38,576 nucleotides of DNA from Verrucomicrobiia bacterium (GTDB taxonomy: Bacteria; Zixibacteria; MSB-5A5; DSPP01), in the NCBI GenBank assembly GCA_035574275.1, contig DATLYY010000026.1:1-38576 (forward strand). The letters are read 5' to 3'. Position 1 is the first letter of the stretch, and each line of letters starts with the position of its first letter. A model generated the notes under the pieces. The model made no database searches. It was not told the DNA's origin and saw nothing but the letters and a program-made list of their open reading frames with translations. Positions 2,315 through 18,621 of this stretch are shown one piece after another. The position numbers were made by a program, and so were the translations under genes.

Positions 2315-3039
2315 GGTTCGCTTTCTTTTCCGACGTCCACGCCAACTGGGAGGCGTTGACGGCGGTTTTGGAGGATTTTGCGCGCCAGAACGTGGAGCGC
2401 TCCTTTTTTTTGGGGGACGCCGTGGGGTACGGGGCGGACCCGAATCCCTGCATCAAGGCGATCTGCGAGGCGACCAAGGTCCGGCTTTTGGGAAACCACG
2501 ACTACGCCGCCCTGGGGCAGATTGAAACCGCACAATTCAACCAGTATGCCCGGCTCTCCATCGAATGGACCAAGGAGGTGCTCACCGCCGAGTCCATTCA
2601 GCTCCTTTCCGGCTTTGTCGTGCAGGAGGAACTGGATGATTTTCATCTCGTGCACGCCACCCCCAAAACCCCCCTCGAATGGGAGTATTTGCTGGACTTG
2701 GACGACGCCGAGGAGAATTTCAATTACTTTTCCAAACAGGTTTGTTTGATCGGGCATTCCCACAAACCCTTGATCGTCCGCAAGCACAAAGAGGAGCATG
2801 CCGCGCTGTTTCCGGAGACCGCCGTCGTTCTGGAGCCGGACTGGCGCTACATCATCAACATCGGCTCGGTGGGGCAGCCGCGGGACGGTAACCCGAAGGC
2901 CTGTTATTTGCTCTGCGACACGGAGAGCCGGGAGGCCCGGCTCGTGCGGGTGGCCTACGACGTGGCCGCCGCCCAAAAGAAGATGAAAGCTTTGAATTTG
3001 CCGGAGTATCTGATTGAACGGATTTCGGCGGGGCGCTGA
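2311..3039 (+). CDS. Calcineurin-like metallophosphoesterase
   Basis: 242-residue two-metal phosphoesterase. The full set of metal motifs is visible: SDVHAN (Asp8, His10), GDAVGYG (Asp36), GNHDYA (Asn62, His63), HATP (His115) and GHSH (His149, His151). The 'GDxVGYG' form is typical of the family often labelled YfcE/diadenosine tetraphosphatase-like, whose substrates are mostly unknown. It starts at GTG 2311, overlapping the FHA stop, and its TGA shares one base with the kinase ATG (TGATG), so all three genes are probably translated as a unit. The context makes a role in reversing the kinase's output, or in cleaving a nucleotide signal, plausible. Neither can be read from sequence. Confidence 0.88.
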   Translation: MRFAFFSDVHANWEALTAVLEDFARQNVERSFFLGDAVGYGADPNPCIKAICEATKVRLLGNHDYAALGQIETAQFNQYARLSIEWTKEVLTAESIQLLSGFVVQEELDDFHLVHATPKTPLEWEYLLDLDDAEENFNYFSKQVCLIGHSHKPLIVRKHKEEHAALFPETAVVLEPDWRYIINIGSVGQPRDGNPKACYLLCDTESREARLVRVAYDVAAAQKKMKALNLPEYLIERISAGR

Positions 3040-5426
3040 TGTTTAAAAAATTTCAGGGGTTCATTCTTTACATTTTAATCACCCTCTTCGTTCTGGCTCT
3101 CTATTTGGACCGCCAGCCGGCCGTGGAAAAGATGGATTTGAAGCTGGCCGACCAGATGTTCCGGCTGCGGGGAGCCGAGCCGGTCGGGACCGAGGTGGCC
3201 ATTGTGCAGATCGATATGCAGGTTTCCAATTTTCTGGGACGCTATCCTTGGAGCCGAGAACGCTGGGCCGGGGTTTTGAACGCCCTCTCTTTGTACCGCC
3301 CTAAAGTGATTGCCTTGGAACTGGCCCCCGGGCTCGTGGACCGTTCCGACACCTCCATTTTGGGCACCTATCTTTTGGCCGATGTTTTGGAGCGGGGGAA
3401 AAACATCATCGTCCCCTTTAGTTTCGTTCCTTCCGAGCAGACTCCCTCCACCCTTTCGGCGCCAAACTATTTTTCCGCCGAGGCCTTTCCCGCTGCCGAC
3501 TTAGAGTTGAAATCCCTTCCCCTTACCGCCGCCGGAGGGGTGAACTATCCCGACCGCGCCTTCGCCGAAAAGGGGGCCGGGCTGGGGCACAACACCCAGT
3601 TGCCGGACGGGGACGGTACTTTGCGCTGGCATCCCTTGGTCGTCAATTTCGAGGGGTTGTACTATCCCTCCCTCGCCTTGACCACCGCCCGGCTTTATTT
3701 GGGGCTTTCCAAAACCCAGTGCGCCGTTTTGCCAAATGGAGGGGTCAAACTGGGAAACACCGTGATACCGACCGACCGGCAGGGGCGGCTTTTCATCAAC
3801 TACGCCGGGCCGGCGGGGAGCTTTAAAACCTACAATCTTTCCGACGTTTTGCAGGGGCAAATCGACCCCAACGCCCTGAAGGGGAAGGCCGTGATTCTGG
3901 CCAAATCGCCGCTCGGTTTGGCGGGAACGTTTAAAACGCCGGTGGAGCCGGCCCTTTCCACCGCCGAGCTTTGCGCCAATCTGGTGGAAAGCATCCTCCA
4001 GCGCCGGTTCGTGAAAACGCTGACCATCAGCAAATTTCTGGACATTTCGTTTTTGATTTTAATCGGCGTTTTAGCGGCCTTTCTTCTGCCGCAGGTCACG
4101 CTCACCTACCGGCTGATCATCCTGGGGATTTTCCTGGTGGCGCTCACCAACCTTTCCTTCGTTTTGTTCAACGCCTTCGGGATTTTGACCAAGCCGTTTT
4201 ACGCCATTTTGGAGCTGGTTTTCTTTCTGGCCGCAAGCCCGGTTTTGAAAGCCAAGCGGACCGAGGTGGAGGTTTTGGACGAGTACTCCTACGACTACGC
4301 CCAGCCGGAATCGGTCGCCCCGCGGAAGGCGGCCGACCGCCCCCCCATGGATGAAGGAGAAGGGGAGGAGCTGACCGGAGAGGTCTCATCCGCCGAAGTG
4401 ACGGCCGAAACGCCGGAGGCCAATCGCTCGGAATACGTCCGCACGGAGGGGATGCCGGAGCCGGAGATTATTGCCGGGGAGGAAACGCTGTACGAGCAGA
4501 CCTCGCTCCAGCCGAAAAAACCGGGTTCCGCCCACCAGCCGCTGGACCGCCCCAAAACCCTGGGGCGCTACGAAATCCAGGAAGTGCTGGGAAAAGGGGC
4601 GATGGGGACCGTTTACAAGGGGCTGGATCCGGCCATCGACCGGCTGGTGGCCCTGAAGACCATCCGGCTCGATTCCGTGGCGGAGGAGAGCGAAATACAG
4701 GAACTGAAGGAGCGGATGGTGCGGGAGGCCAAAGCCGCCGGCAAGCTTTCCCATCCGAACATCGTCACCATTTACGACGTGGGGCACGAGGGGGATTTGC
4801 AGTACATCGCCATGGAGTATCTCGAAGGGTACACGCTGGAGGAAATCATCAAGCGGCAGGTGGTGCTGAATTACAAAATCGTGGCCAAGCTGATTGTGCA
4901 GGTGTGCGACGCTCTGGATTACGCCCACGACCGGGGAATCGTCCACCGGGACATCAAGCCGGCCAACATCATGGTGATGAACAATTTTCAGGTGAAGGTT
5001 ATGGATTTCGGCATCGCCCGGCTGGAGACCTCCGCCTCGATGACCCAGACGGGCATCGCGATGGGCACTCCCAACTATATCTCCCCTGAGCAGCTGCAGG
5101 GAAAGCCGGTGGACCGCCGGTCCGACATCTTCGCTTTGGGGGTGGTGATGTACGAATTTTTGACCCAGGAAAAGCCGTTCCGCGGGGAGAACTTGAGCCA
5201 GCTCATTTACAACATCATCAACCACAACCCCCCCTCCCCGGTGGAAAAAAACGAAAGCATCCCGATGATTTTGAACCGGGTCACCATGCGGGCCATTGCC
5301 AAAGACCCCCAGGAGCGCTACCAAAGGGCCGGCGAACTGGCCGCCGAATTGAAAGAGTTTTTGGCCTCCTTCATTCTCTCCGCCCCAAAACCCCGCCAGC
5401 CGGCCGGGCAGCAGACCCAGGCGTAG
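3039..5426 (+). CDS. CHASE2-domain transmembrane Ser/Thr protein kinase
   Basis: 795-residue membrane receptor kinase. A first membrane helix (about 7-22) leads to an extracytoplasmic CHASE2 sensor (about 30-325; VAIVQIDMQ, PWSRERWA, GRLFINYAGP). Three hydrophobic helices follow (about 335-400), then an acidic linker and a cytoplasmic Hanks-type kinase (about 508-775). Kinase motifs are intact: glycine loop GKGAMGTVYKG, VALK (Lys540), HRDIKPANIM (Asp638), DFGIAR (Asp656) and GTPNYISPEQL. Order is unusual compared with PknB, since the sensor is N-terminal and the kinase C-terminal. It is the last gene of the operon with the FHA protein and phosphoesterase, so it probably senses an envelope cue and phosphorylates the FHA protein or other targets (inference). 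There is no PASTA domain. Confidence 0.93.
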   Translation: MFKKFQGFILYILITLFVLALYLDRQPAVEKMDLKLADQMFRLRGAEPVGTEVAIVQIDMQVSNFLGRYPWSRERWAGVLNALSLYRPKVIALELAPGLVDRSDTSILGTYLLADVLERGKNIIVPFSFVPSEQTPSTLSAPNYFSAEAFPAADLELKSLPLTAAGGVNYPDRAFAEKGAGLGHNTQLPDGDGTLRWHPLVVNFEGLYYPSLALTTARLYLGLSKTQCAVLPNGGVKLGNTVIPTDRQGRLFINYAGPAGSFKTYNLSDVLQGQIDPNALKGKAVILAKSPLGLAGTFKTPVEPALSTAELCANLVESILQRRFVKTLTISKFLDISFLILIGVLAAFLLPQVTLTYRLIILGIFLVALTNLSFVLFNAFGILTKPFYAILELVFFLAASPVLKAKRTEVEVLDEYSYDYAQPESVAPRKAADRPPMDEGEGEELTGEVSSAEVTAETPEANRSEYVRTEGMPEPEIIAGEETLYEQTSLQPKKPGSAHQPLDRPKTLGRYEIQEVLGKGAMGTVYKGLDPAIDRLVALKTIRLDSVAEESEIQELKERMVREAKAAGKLSHPNIVTIYDVGHEGDLQYIAMEYLEGYTLEEIIKRQVVLNYKIVAKLIVQVCDALDYAHDRGIVHRDIKPANIMVMNNFQVKVMDFGIARLETSASMTQTGIAMGTPNYISPEQLQGKPVDRRSDIFALGVVMYEFLTQEKPFRGENLSQLIYNIINHNPPSPVEKNESIPMILNRVTMRAIAKDPQERYQRAGELAAELKEFLASFILSAPKPRQPAGQQTQA

Positions 5427-11184: not shown

Positions 11185-11808
11185 TTACCGCTCGATTAAA
11201 ACCGCCCGGGCGGGGGCGCCGTCGCCGTCCTTGATTTTCAACGGCAGGCAAAAAAGCTCGTATTTCCCGGGCTTAACGTAGGAAAGATTAACCCCCTCCA
11301 AAATCACGGTGCCGGCCTTGAGCAGGGCGAGATGGCTTTGCAGTGTTTTGGCGTCGAACTTTTCAATCGAGAGATAATCGATGCCGACCAGCTTCAGTTT
11401 GCGGGTGGCCAGATATTCGGCGGCGGCCGTGGTCAAATAGGTGTAGTTGCGGGAAAACTCCTTCCGTTCCCATAAAAAGGAGTTCTTGGTCTTGAAAATC
11501 ACCCGTTCGGCGGTGAATTTGTGCCTTTGCAAAACGGGCAGGGTGATTTCATCCTCGATGCCGATATCCACCACCTCGCATTCCCCGATTAAGGTATCCA
11601 GCGGGATTTCGTTTGCCTTGGTTCCGTCCGCCAGCAAATGATAGGGGGGGTCGATATGGGTGCCGGCGTGCGTGGATAAACAGAGCCGGGAGGTGTTCGG
11701 GTCTCCGGCCGGGCCCACCTGCGTCAACGGCACAATCTCCACCGGCGGGTCGCCGGGATAAACCACCAGTTCCGGGGAAATCCGCACGGAAATGTCGTGA
11801 ATTTTCAT
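11185..11808 (-). CDS. Cyclase-family / kynurenine formamidase-like metal hydrolase
   Basis: 207-residue member of the cyclase family (PF04199), metal-dependent hydrolases that include kynurenine formamidase KynB. The metal site HAGTHIDPPYH (47-57) is complete. The N-terminus IHDISVRISPELVVYPGDPP and the GIDYLSIEKFD block are also typical. ATG 11808 gives the usual N-terminus; the frame stays open 52 codons upstream into the divergent promoter region and is not supported. No kynurenine or tryptophan-catabolism gene is near, so the substrate cannot be named. Confidence 0.88.
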   Translation of the reverse strand: MKIHDISVRISPELVVYPGDPPVEIVPLTQVGPAGDPNTSRLCLSTHAGTHIDPPYHLLADGTKANEIPLDTLIGECEVVDIGIEDEITLPVLQRHKFTAERVIFKTKNSFLWERKEFSRNYTYLTTAAAEYLATRKLKLVGIDYLSIEKFDAKTLQSHLALLKAGTVILEGVNLSYVKPGKYELFCLPLKIKDGDGAPARAVLIER

Positions 11809-11957
11809 ATCCCTATCTAAGTGTTCGGCAAAAACGGCCCGGCATAAACGGGGGGAAAATAGGGATTTTCGAGTGAAAAGGGAAGAATCCGGCTCCGTGC
11901 AATAAATTGCGTCTTTTTCGACTCGGCCGGAAATGTTATCTTCCCGGCCGAACGGCG

Positions 11958-12473
11958 ATGTCAAGAACGGAACAAAAATTCACGCTTCCGGCCATCTGGG
12001 CCCCCTGGCGGGAGGGGTTTATTTTTGGGGAAAAGGAGAGGGGTTGCATCTTTTGCCGCCGCTTGAAGCGAAAGAAGGATAAGGCGGACTTTATTCTTTT
12101 TCGGGGCGAGCGGAGTTTTATCATTATGAACCTGTACCCCTACACCAGCGGGCATTTGATGATTGTCCCCAACCGGCATATCGCCGAGCTTTCTGATTTG
12201 GCGGAAGAGGAGTCGGCGGAGATGATGGAGCTGGCGGCGAAATCGATCGGCGCGATGAAAAAAACGATGCGGCCGGAGGGGTTCAATCTCGGAATGAATT
12301 TGGGGCGGGCCGCCGGCGCCGGGGTGGCCGGGCATCTGCATTTGCACGTGGTTCCCCGCTGGCCGGGGGACGCCAACTTTATGCCGGTGGTCGGAAAAAC
12401 AAAAGTTTTCTCGGTGGGGTTGCAAAAAATTTATGATTTATTATATCCCCATATGCGGGGCCAACGAAAATGA
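11958..12473 (+). CDS. HIT-family hydrolase (Ap4A phosphorylase-like)
   Basis: 171-residue histidine-triad protein that cleaves or transfers nucleotide phosphates. The triad HLHLHVV (126-132) is intact, with FRGERSFIIMNLYPYTSGHLMIVPNRH (His74) upstream. CIFC (30-33) and a further histidine could bind zinc, as in the ATP-adenylyltransferase/Ap4A-phosphorylase-like branch, which also begins with the WAPWR block seen at 14-18. ATG 11958 is chosen because the WAPWR block is normally near the N-terminus. Its stop overlaps the start of the HTH-pseudo-aconitase by 4 nt (ATGA), so the two are co-translated and may act together. Confidence 0.9.
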   Translation: MSRTEQKFTLPAIWAPWREGFIFGEKERGCIFCRRLKRKKDKADFILFRGERSFIIMNLYPYTSGHLMIVPNRHIAELSDLAEEESAEMMELAAKSIGAMKKTMRPEGFNLGMNLGRAAGAGVAGHLHLHVVPRWPGDANFMPVVGKTKVFSVGLQKIYDLLYPHMRGQRK

Positions 12474-13954
12474 GCAAAATCCCAACCAAAACGCAACTGG
12501 TGGAGCTGCAGAAAAAGCACAAAACCTACGAGCGGATCGGCGAGGCGCTCGGCGGAGTTCCCCCCTATCTGGTTTCCTACTGGATGCGCAAGAAGGATGT
12601 GCCCAAGGTCTCCGAGCCAAAATTTTCCCGTTATCAAATCCAGTCCGCCTGGGAGGAGACCGGCTCGGACGTACAGGCCGGGCTGCTTTTGGGGATTTCC
12701 AAAGCCGCCTTTTACCGCTGGCGGAGGGTGTACGGGCTGGTTGAAAAACCAAAGGTTTTGAAGCTGCATCAACTGGATTTGGGAATCGGGCTGCCGCGCC
12801 GCGAGGCCTACAAAAAGGCCACCGTTTTGGAGCAGGTTTTGTCGGAAAAACTGCCGGGAAAAGAAATACAGGTGGGGGAACAACTGGAGGTGATGCCCGA
12901 CCGGGGGGCGGTCTGGCTGGCGCCAGAGGAGTTGCCGGACTGGCCGGAACTGGAACGCCCCTATCCGGTGAATCTGTTTGAGTTTTTCAACCCGCTCGTC
13001 CGTTCCGGCTCCGGCACCATCCGAGGGGAGGAAAAAATCGAAGGGCGGGTTTTTTCCGCCGGGGACGGCGTTTTTCATCAACTGCTTTTTGAACAGCGGC
13101 TTCCCCGACCGTTTGAATTGGTGGGATCCGCCGGGCACCATCTTTCCGCTCTTTCCGGCTTTGGCGCGGTCGTTTTTCCCACCGAGCGGGAGCGGTTGGC
13201 GGAAGGACATCCGATTGCTTTGACCGTGCCGAAGGTGTACCAGATTGTCCTCACCGGCAAGCTTCCCCAGGGAGTGACGGCAGCCGACGTGGTTCTTAAT
13301 TTACAGGGGAAAATTTCCCCTTCCTGGGACTGGAACGGCTTGGTGGAGATTTTGGGGGAGGGAGTCGATATGCTATCGGCGGAAGAGCGCTTCAATTTAG
13401 CCAATCTAGCAAGCGAGCTTCACTTTCAATCAGTCACCGTCGCCGCGCAGAAGCCCCCCGCACCCGAGCCGCGGCTGGGGGATTGGAAGGTGCCACAACT
13501 ATCGCTCGATTTATCCACGGTCGAGCCGCAAGTCCGCCATTACCCGGAGGGGCTGGTCGGCGAACCGGTTTCCGGTTTTTCGGACCGGAACGTGGAGCGG
13601 GTCTTTATCGGCGGCTGCCAGAGCGGAAATCTGGAGGATTTAGAAACCATCGCCCGGCTTCTGGAAAACCGGGTGGTGGCGGAGGGGGTGGAACTTTCCA
13701 TCTTTCCTGCCTCGCGAACCGTTTACCGCAAGGCGGCGCGCAAAGGGGTTATGGATACGCTGGTTGGGGCGGGGGCCTATGTTTTCCCGCCGGGGAGCAA
13801 TCCGGTTTCCTGGACGGGGAAGATTTTTTCCACCACGGATCGGGCCTGCCTGGAGCATTTGAACCCGCGCAACGTCTGGACCGGCTCGTATTTGACCGGT
13901 CTGGCCTCCGCTTTGACGGGAAAGCTTACTGATCCGAGAAGTTTGTTTCGATAA
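12470..13954 (+). CDS. HTH domain fused to a degenerate LeuC/aconitase-like protein
   Basis: 494-residue protein. Residues 1-92 look like two helix-turn-helix units (YERIGEALGGVPPYLVSYWM at 20-39; Fis-like GLLLGISKAAFYRWRRVYGL at 71-90). From about 105 on, it aligns by eye with 3-isopropylmalate dehydratase large subunits: GVFHQLLFEQ (200-209), IVLTGKLPQGVTAADVVLNL (259-278), RVFIGGCQSGNLEDL (377-391), FPASRTVYRKA and the closing TGKLTDPR. The catalytic GDSHT-type block is replaced by GSAGHH (219-224). Of three Fe-S cysteines only Cys383 remains; the other two positions read Ser443 and Val446. Enzyme activity is therefore unlikely, and a DNA-binding sensor derived from an aconitase is the best guess. 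The frame is clean over its whole length, so it is not a pseudogene by appearance. Confidence 0.8.
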   Translation: MSKIPTKTQLVELQKKHKTYERIGEALGGVPPYLVSYWMRKKDVPKVSEPKFSRYQIQSAWEETGSDVQAGLLLGISKAAFYRWRRVYGLVEKPKVLKLHQLDLGIGLPRREAYKKATVLEQVLSEKLPGKEIQVGEQLEVMPDRGAVWLAPEELPDWPELERPYPVNLFEFFNPLVRSGSGTIRGEEKIEGRVFSAGDGVFHQLLFEQRLPRPFELVGSAGHHLSALSGFGAVVFPTERERLAEGHPIALTVPKVYQIVLTGKLPQGVTAADVVLNLQGKISPSWDWNGLVEILGEGVDMLSAEERFNLANLASELHFQSVTVAAQKPPAPEPRLGDWKVPQLSLDLSTVEPQVRHYPEGLVGEPVSGFSDRNVERVFIGGCQSGNLEDLETIARLLENRVVAEGVELSIFPASRTVYRKAARKGVMDTLVGAGAYVFPPGSNPVSWTGKIFSTTDRACLEHLNPRNVWTGSYLTGLASALTGKLTDPRSLFR

Positions 13955-17271: not shown

Positions 17272-18621
17272 TCAGGCTTTCTCCAATGAACTTACCAATT
17301 CCACATGAAACGTATGAGGGTACATATCGACCGGAATCACCCGCTTGAGTCGGTAGCCCCCTTCGGCAAAAAGTTTGGCGTCGCGGGCGAAGGTGGTGGG
17401 GTTGCAGGAGACGTAGGTAATTTTTTCGGCGCCGAGCGGCAGAACGTCCCGAATCACTTTCGGGTGCAAACCGGCGCGAGGGGGATCCACGATTATCCGG
17501 TCGAACTTTCGGCTATCCAGCCGGTACTGCTTGGCAATCTTGCGGGCTTCGCCTAAAACAAAACGCACGTTTTCCACACCGTTTTCTTTTTTGTTTTTCT
17601 CGGCCATTTCAATCGCCTCCGGCACGATTTCCACTCCTTCCACTTCTTTGGCGTAGGGCGAAACGAAAATGGAAATGGTTCCCGCGCCGCAGTAGAGGTC
17701 TAAAACACTCTCCTTTCCGGAAAGCACGCACACCTCCAACGCCGTTTGGTACGGCTTTTCGGTTTGGCGGGAGTTGGTCTGCAAAAAAGTTTTGGCGGAA
17801 AGAAAAAAGTTGAATTTCCCGATTTTCTCCTTGATAAACGGTTTTCCCCACAGAACAATCTCTTCTTCGCCAGTGGCGATCTGGGCCTTGGTGGGGTTGA
17901 TCAGGTGCAGAACGGACGTGATTTGCGGGAAACTTCGTACAAGCTCCTGCGCCCAAGCTTTCAGGTCAGCTTCCCCTTTGGCGGTCACGAGAGCGACCAT
18001 TACCTCATCGGTGTTTTTTCCTTCGCGTATGACCAGAAAGCGCAAAAAACCTTCGTGCGTGTGCCAATTGTAGCCGGGAAGTCCGGAGCGGGTGAAAAAG
18101 TCGCGGCAGAAGGCGACAATTTGGTTGGAGAGTTCGGACTGGAGAAAGCAGGACTCCACGTTAAACATTTTTTCAAAATGACCCCGCTCGTGGAGGCCCA
18201 AAACCAGTTTTCCATTTTGGTCGGCAAAGGAAAATTCCATTTTGTTGCGGTAGAAAAACGTGTCCGGCGAGGGGATAATCGGCTCCACCGGCGGGTTGGG
18301 AAAGCCGCCCAGTTTTTGTAAGCTCTCGCGTACTAACTTTTCTTTCTCTTGTATTTGCTTTTCATAGTTGAAATCTTGATAAACACAGCCGCCACAGGTG
18401 CCGAAGTGCGAGCAGCGGGGAGGGATGCGGTCGGCAGAGGGTGTTAATACTTCCAGCAAACGGCCTTCGAGAAAACCCTTACGGCGGCGCAAAATTTCGG
18501 CCTTCACAAGTTCCCCGGGCAGACCGTAGTCCAGAAAGACCGCTCTTCCGTTGTGCCGAGCCAACGAACGGCCGGGATAGACCAGTTTTTCAATCGTCAG
18601 TTCCAAAATTTCTCCGGGCAT
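17272..18621 (-). CDS. RlmD/TrmA-family RNA uracil-C5 methyltransferase
   Basis: 449-residue SAM-dependent enzyme that methylates uracil C5 in rRNA or tRNA. An N-terminal TRAM-type domain (ELTIEKLVYPGRSLARHNGR, 7-26) is followed by a 4Fe-4S cluster motif CSHFGTCGGCVYQ (about 70-82). The SAM site VLDLYCGAGTISI, the DPPRAGLHP block and the nucleophile motif VSCNPTTFARD are all present. The cluster argues for the RlmD/RumA branch over plain TrmA, but the exact target uridine (1939, 747 or 54) cannot be fixed from sequence. No clear Shine-Dalgarno precedes ATG 18621. It diverges from the ETF-quinone oxidoreductase gene. Confidence 0.93.
   Translation of the reverse strand: MPGEILELTIEKLVYPGRSLARHNGRAVFLDYGLPGELVKAEILRRRKGFLEGRLLEVLTPSADRIPPRCSHFGTCGGCVYQDFNYEKQIQEKEKLVRESLQKLGGFPNPPVEPIIPSPDTFFYRNKMEFSFADQNGKLVLGLHERGHFEKMFNVESCFLQSELSNQIVAFCRDFFTRSGLPGYNWHTHEGFLRFLVIREGKNTDEVMVALVTAKGEADLKAWAQELVRSFPQITSVLHLINPTKAQIATGEEEIVLWGKPFIKEKIGKFNFFLSAKTFLQTNSRQTEKPYQTALEVCVLSGKESVLDLYCGAGTISIFVSPYAKEVEGVEIVPEAIEMAEKNKKENGVENVRFVLGEARKIAKQYRLDSRKFDRIIVDPPRAGLHPKVIRDVLPLGAEKITYVSCNPTTFARDAKLFAEGGYRLKRVIPVDMYPHTFHVELVSSLEKA

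Follow-up and report, generated by a model that had tools for sequence, protein, structure and literature searches.

The window, a 38,576-nucleotide stretch of DNA from a genome of the class Ca. Zixiibacteriota, encodes a protein that joins a predicted N-terminal tandem HTH to a LeuC/aconitase homologue with a broken active site. This protein is probably a pseudoenzyme that binds DNA, most likely to regulate transcription, and that descends from an active HTH-LeuC enzyme with a LeuD partner. Its HTH part is basic, near-invariant and always tied to a gene of the HIT family, and a predicted DNA-binding regulator is the simplest reading of this combination. Among open-licence PMC papers, none was found that describes an HTH-LeuC fusion. 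The features of the locus are collected in Table 1.

Table 1. Features of the HTH-LeuC locus and of its upstream region (positions within the window).
Feature	Position	Strand	Details
Putative cyclase	11185-11811	-	PF04199; divergent from the HIT gene
Inverted repeat GAAAAT-AGGG-ATTTTC	11855-11870	.	about 90 bp upstream of HIT; candidate operator (weak)
HIT-family hydrolase, Ap4A-phosphorylase-like	11958-12473	+	171 aa; PF01230, E=4.7e-18
Tandem-HTH/LeuC-like fusion ORF	12470-13954	+	494 aa, open frame
Predicted HTH unit 1	12488-12592	+	residues 7-41; helices 7-16, 20-26, 32-41; AlphaFold2 pLDDT about 80-90
Predicted HTH unit 2	12629-12730	+	residues 54-87; helices 54-64, 67-74, 78-87; AlphaFold2
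Degenerate LeuC/aconitase domain	12821-13951	+	residues 118-494; PF00330, PRK00402, alignment with intact relatives
GSAGHH for G-x-D-S-H-T catalytic block	13124-13141	+	residues 219-224; alignment, register uncertain by one residue
Cys383, sole Fe-S ligand retained	13616-13618	+	alignment
Ser443..Val446 replacing Cys-x-x-Cys Fe-S ligand pair	13796-13807	+	alignment

An earlier note on this DNA had described a full-length LeuC-like homologue with an intact reading frame, and the analysis agrees with this description. The Pfam family Aconitase (PF00330) matches residues 189-317 at E=1.3e-30 and a second stretch as well, with a score of 107 bits against the curated cut-off of 28.7, which places the protein in the aconitase superfamily. 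The NCBIfam model PRK00402 (the LeuC/homoaconitase group) covers residues 194-490 at 131 bits against a family cut-off of 385; thus, the window protein is a divergent homologue and not a LeuC. Its best PDB sequence match is 4kp2 (E=3e-22), and its solved relatives are the large subunits of archaeal homoaconitase and isopropylmalate isomerase. The predicted LeuC-like fold is based on these sequence profiles; in an AlphaFold2 model of the full protein, built from a two-sequence alignment, the LeuC part has a pLDDT mostly of 20-45. A protein with 80% identity, which keeps the architecture and all of the active-site losses, occurs in a sister species, the only match when genome contigs were scanned with the window protein as the query.

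The active site was read by aligning the protein to the LeuC of the same genome and to intact relatives, and the lost residues are given in mitochondrial aconitase numbering. The protein had been called catalytically dead on the grounds that its GDSHT-type block reads GSAGHH and that Ser443 and Val446 stand in place of the last two Fe-S cysteines. Both replacements are confirmed by the alignment; the block reads G219-SAGHH, with D165 and S166 of the D-S-H-T motif lost. In addition, D100 and H101 of the L-D-H motif now read N-P, and the substrate arginine pair is incomplete, with R458 present and the second arginine (R452) now His, so that neither the DSH block nor the arginine pair of a catalytic LeuC is whole. 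The three cysteines of such an enzyme are reduced to C383, which is retained together with H203-Q204, E293 and R458. LeuD is not found next to the gene; the downstream gene lies on the opposite strand and encodes a DUF58 protein. The same genome carries a separate LeuC and LeuD pair on contig C77 and a further aconitase on contig C20.

Of 133 genomes of Ca. Zixiibacteriota, the class within which the count was made and in which many genomes are drafts, 121 gave a single HTH match in the profile search, among them 77 of the 79 high-quality ones. Some of the 12 genomes that gave no HTH match are incomplete, and in one of them (G006) a fragment of LeuC lies at the edge of a contig. At 120 loci, examined together with as much as 8 kb of flanking DNA per side, the HIT gene lies upstream of HTH-LeuC without exception and is directly adjacent in 116, the commonest spacing (47 loci) being a 4-bp overlap. 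The HIT neighbour is therefore conserved across the class, and HTH-LeuC beside it is a near-universal single-copy gene. In the window, the HIT stop overlaps the fusion start by such a 4-bp ATGA (12470-12473), in agreement with the co-translation proposed in the earlier note.

The HIT family is tied to Ap4A-type nucleotides. The window member matches PF01230 and carries the H-x-H-x-H motif in the form HLHLH, a motif that was found by pattern in 108 of the 120 HIT neighbours and that most of the inspected exceptions still show. Its best PDB matches are 6af2 and Ap4A phosphorylase (3ano/3wo5), with E values from 6e-38 to 1e-36, and among named structures it is nearest to Ap4A phosphorylase. The match to the Rv2613c-type Ap4A phosphorylase (3ano) has E=5.5e-37; we know of no link between that type of enzyme and a LeuC-like regulator.

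Several other genes were observed in these neighbourhoods. At L159 (family f15), HIT and HTH-LeuC are separated by a gene whose 175-aa product has cysteine motifs. In 35 genomes of 10 families, the neighbourhood of the pair includes a gene for a TrmA/RlmD-type uracil methyltransferase, mostly 2-5 genes upstream; in the window, such a gene (17272-18621, minus strand) lies four genes downstream of the pair, on the other strand. Genes named by eye as SbcC/Rad50-like ATPase precede HIT in 18 genomes and those named as SbcD-like phosphoesterase in 12, in families f5, f6, f11, f13, f14 and f18 (for example, L161 and L181). The window also encodes, at 3039-5426 on the plus strand, a Ser/Thr protein kinase (PF00069) with a fused CHASE2 sensor domain (PF05226).

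The class contains enzyme domains at different stages of decay. A full LeuC active site is present in 11 of the 120 loci, all in families f4, f10, f13 and f16, and ten of these members have an intact LeuD directly downstream, while LeuD was unmatched in the eleventh (L134), whose gene lies near a contig end. For one of the intact relatives, L034, the matches to 4nqy and 4kp1 have E values of about 1e-139. Twelve members, in families f9, f11, f14 and f19, have the three cysteines without the DSH block or the arginine pair; of the remaining 97 members, 95 have lost all three motifs, and two retain one motif other than the cysteines. LeuD decays in parallel: it is degraded beside the degraded LeuC in f11, f14 and f19; in a few f9 genomes it is both displaced and degraded; and in the remaining decayed lineages it is absent, except in two f7 genomes. 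In that family, L147 and L154 have an intact LeuD after a decayed HTH-LeuC, unlike the parallel decay seen elsewhere. The alignment of decayed members indicates that substrate and cluster positions are randomised except Glu262, with no new consensus, and that the fold-core residues D273, E293, G296, D338 and G435 are invariant.

These data bear on the proposal, made in the earlier note, that the protein perhaps senses isopropylmalate, a related acid or iron. A sensor of this kind, in which such an acid or a cluster would switch DNA binding, would have company in the aconitase superfamily, where IRP1 and AcnB are known regulators, and the invariant fold core is in its favor. Moreover, as all three cysteines persist in 12 decayed members, an Fe-S sensor is possible in those members. 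The window protein, however, is without two of the three cysteines, D100/H101, D165/S166 and R452, and the pocket positions hold many different residues. LeuA was not matched in f10, f13 and f16, three of the four families with an intact site. With the pocket gone and LeuA unmatched there, isopropylmalate sensing is weak for the window copy and was given up as the leading idea; sensing of any of the proposed ligands is not supported for this copy, and we consider a metabolite or iron sensor unlikely. Judged from its residues, the window protein is also unlikely to work by a cluster switch, two of the ligands being lost.

The analogy with IRP1 drawn in the same note is a loose one. IRP1, as an apo-aconitase, binds RNA hairpins via the aconitase fold itself and needs a cluster switch. 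AcnB (PMC4150767) likewise binds RNA with its enzyme fold once the cluster is lost. The window protein resembles both as an aconitase-superfamily protein with a nucleic-acid role, predicted in its case; this part of the analogy stands, whereas the mode of action is unlikely to carry over, since the window protein has a dedicated fused HTH and mutated cluster ligands.

The two HTH-like units expected at the N-terminus were recovered by structure prediction. AlphaFold2 models residues 1-105 as six helices in two trihelical units with a mean pLDDT of 82, and the units align with each other above shuffled sequences (score 44 versus 22 +/- 4.4, P=0.0005). The HTH fold is assigned from this model; Pfam HTH_23 and HTH_28 match unit 2 only, below their curated cut-offs. 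A fold search with the HTH domain gave no significant match, the DNA-binding domains of Mos1, Myb and LysR being among the top ones. The HTH is near-invariant across the class and basic, with a median net charge of +11 against about 0 for the remainder of the protein, and the third helix of both units is basic and invariant (Y37-W38 and K41-K42 in the first, W84-R85 in the second). When plasmids and viral contigs were searched for the HTH unit, none was found.

A candidate operator, treated here as a weak lead, is the palindrome in the intergenic region between the divergent putative cyclase and HIT genes. No second exact GAAAATNNNNATTTTC site occurs in the 2.5 Mb genome, and phylogenetic footprinting revealed conservation of the palindrome in the sister species amid 62%-identical DNA (0 of 200 column shuffles). 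Its weakness as a lead follows from the footprinting of other clades, in which the palindrome was not seen outside the window's genus. Dyad enrichment over the upstream regions of all clades returned A/T runs only and no class-wide operator. Defining a regulon by a one-mismatch palindrome scan was attempted and rejected, as 28-32 sites per genome are too many.

The lack of an operator common to the clades would fit an HTH-like domain that is not part of a classical transcription factor and whose target is instead RNA, a protein partner or the nucleoid as a whole, as would the sub-threshold Pfam matches and the fact that aconitases are known RNA binders. Nevertheless, both units show the helix pattern of a sequence-reading HTH with an invariant basic third helix, and DNA-binding domains figure prominently in the best fold matches, which makes this possibility quite improbable.

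The history of the fusion was reconstructed from two trees. In the tree with LeuC, a check suggested in the earlier note, all fused LeuC domains group together, separate from the unfused paralogues (SH-aLRT 100), so there was a single fusion event. The HTH and HIT tree recovers the genome families, f11 excepted, and thus fits vertical descent. Dollo parsimony on the latter tree gives three losses of the complete site; as the placement of f1 and f2 is weak, the safe statement is that the complete site was lost at least twice. Counted residue by residue, the losses (23 for the three cysteines and 18 for DSH) are overstated owing to isolated f9 rows, and only the complete-site count was used.

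Selection also differs between the two parts of the protein. For the HTH, dN/dS ranges over 0.005-0.10 in close pairs whose LeuC domain has decayed, and the LeuC part of these pairs, with 0.07-0.34, evolves faster yet remains under purifying selection, whereas in the two comparable intact pairs (f13 and f16) the order is reversed, with 0.05-0.06 for the LeuC part and 0.08-0.10 for the HTH. Between the window protein and its counterpart in the sister species, the values are 0.085 (HTH) and 0.165 (LeuC part), and the frame is open in both. The protein is thus maintained, and its most guarded part has moved from the enzyme to the HTH. The branch that carries the LeuC part of the window lineage does measure 2.9 changes per site, as might be expected of a decaying pseudogene or a relic without present function, but this reading is contradicted by the dN/dS values and open frames, as well as by the retention of a single copy across the class, and is hardly credible. 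Just as improbable is an enzyme with a new activity in a remodelled pocket: purifying selection on the fold core would suit it, but the lost polar set has not been replaced by a new conserved one, and the window locus has no LeuD to complete the active site.

For the preferred reading, a DNA-binding pseudoenzyme, we infer the following course of events. Early in the class, the large subunit of an active LeuC-type hydro-lyase with a LeuD partner would have been joined once to a tandem HTH, and the fusion placed behind the HIT hydrolase gene. A few families would still carry an apparently bifunctional enzyme with LeuD, while most lineages, that of the window among them, would have lost catalysis, then the Fe-S ligands, and LeuD, keeping the HTH and HIT. 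In the window genome, the HTHs would be the part that contacts DNA, with the LeuC-like domain as a folded scaffold for assembly, partner binding or a lineage-specific ligand, and the protein would act with the HIT enzyme. More tentatively, and with rather less than even confidence, the class may preserve the steps from enzyme to regulator, namely an active gated factor, intermediates that have only the cluster ligands left and could sense iron or redox state, and end-stage DNA-binding scaffolds, the window protein being one, that work with HIT (Ap4A-type).

Among known systems, the LeuC/HacA large subunits of isopropylmalate/citramalate isomerase and homoaconitase (4kp1, 4nqy, 4kp2) have a domain in common with the window protein, which differs from them in the added N-terminal tandem HTH, the loss of the active site and of two cluster ligands, and the missing LeuD. 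PutA, BirA and NadR are trigger enzymes with a DNA-binding domain. HTH-LeuC is similar in joining an enzyme to a predicted DNA-binding domain, and its intact families would fit the trigger-enzyme type; it derives, however, from a different enzyme family, and catalysis has been lost in most members.

To our knowledge, most enzyme-derived regulators are known in their finished form. In the present case, a single-copy gene that nearly all genomes of the class carry has an enzyme domain that is intact, half-decayed or fully decayed depending on the lineage, always next to a conserved HTH and with LeuD decaying in step, and this graded series makes the order of loss, and the role of the kept domain, testable. 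An uncultured phylum gains a candidate core regulator linked to a HIT hydrolase. If the proposal is true, the intact lineages would have metabolite- or cluster-gated transcription factors that join an Fe-S hydro-lyase to a DNA-binding domain.
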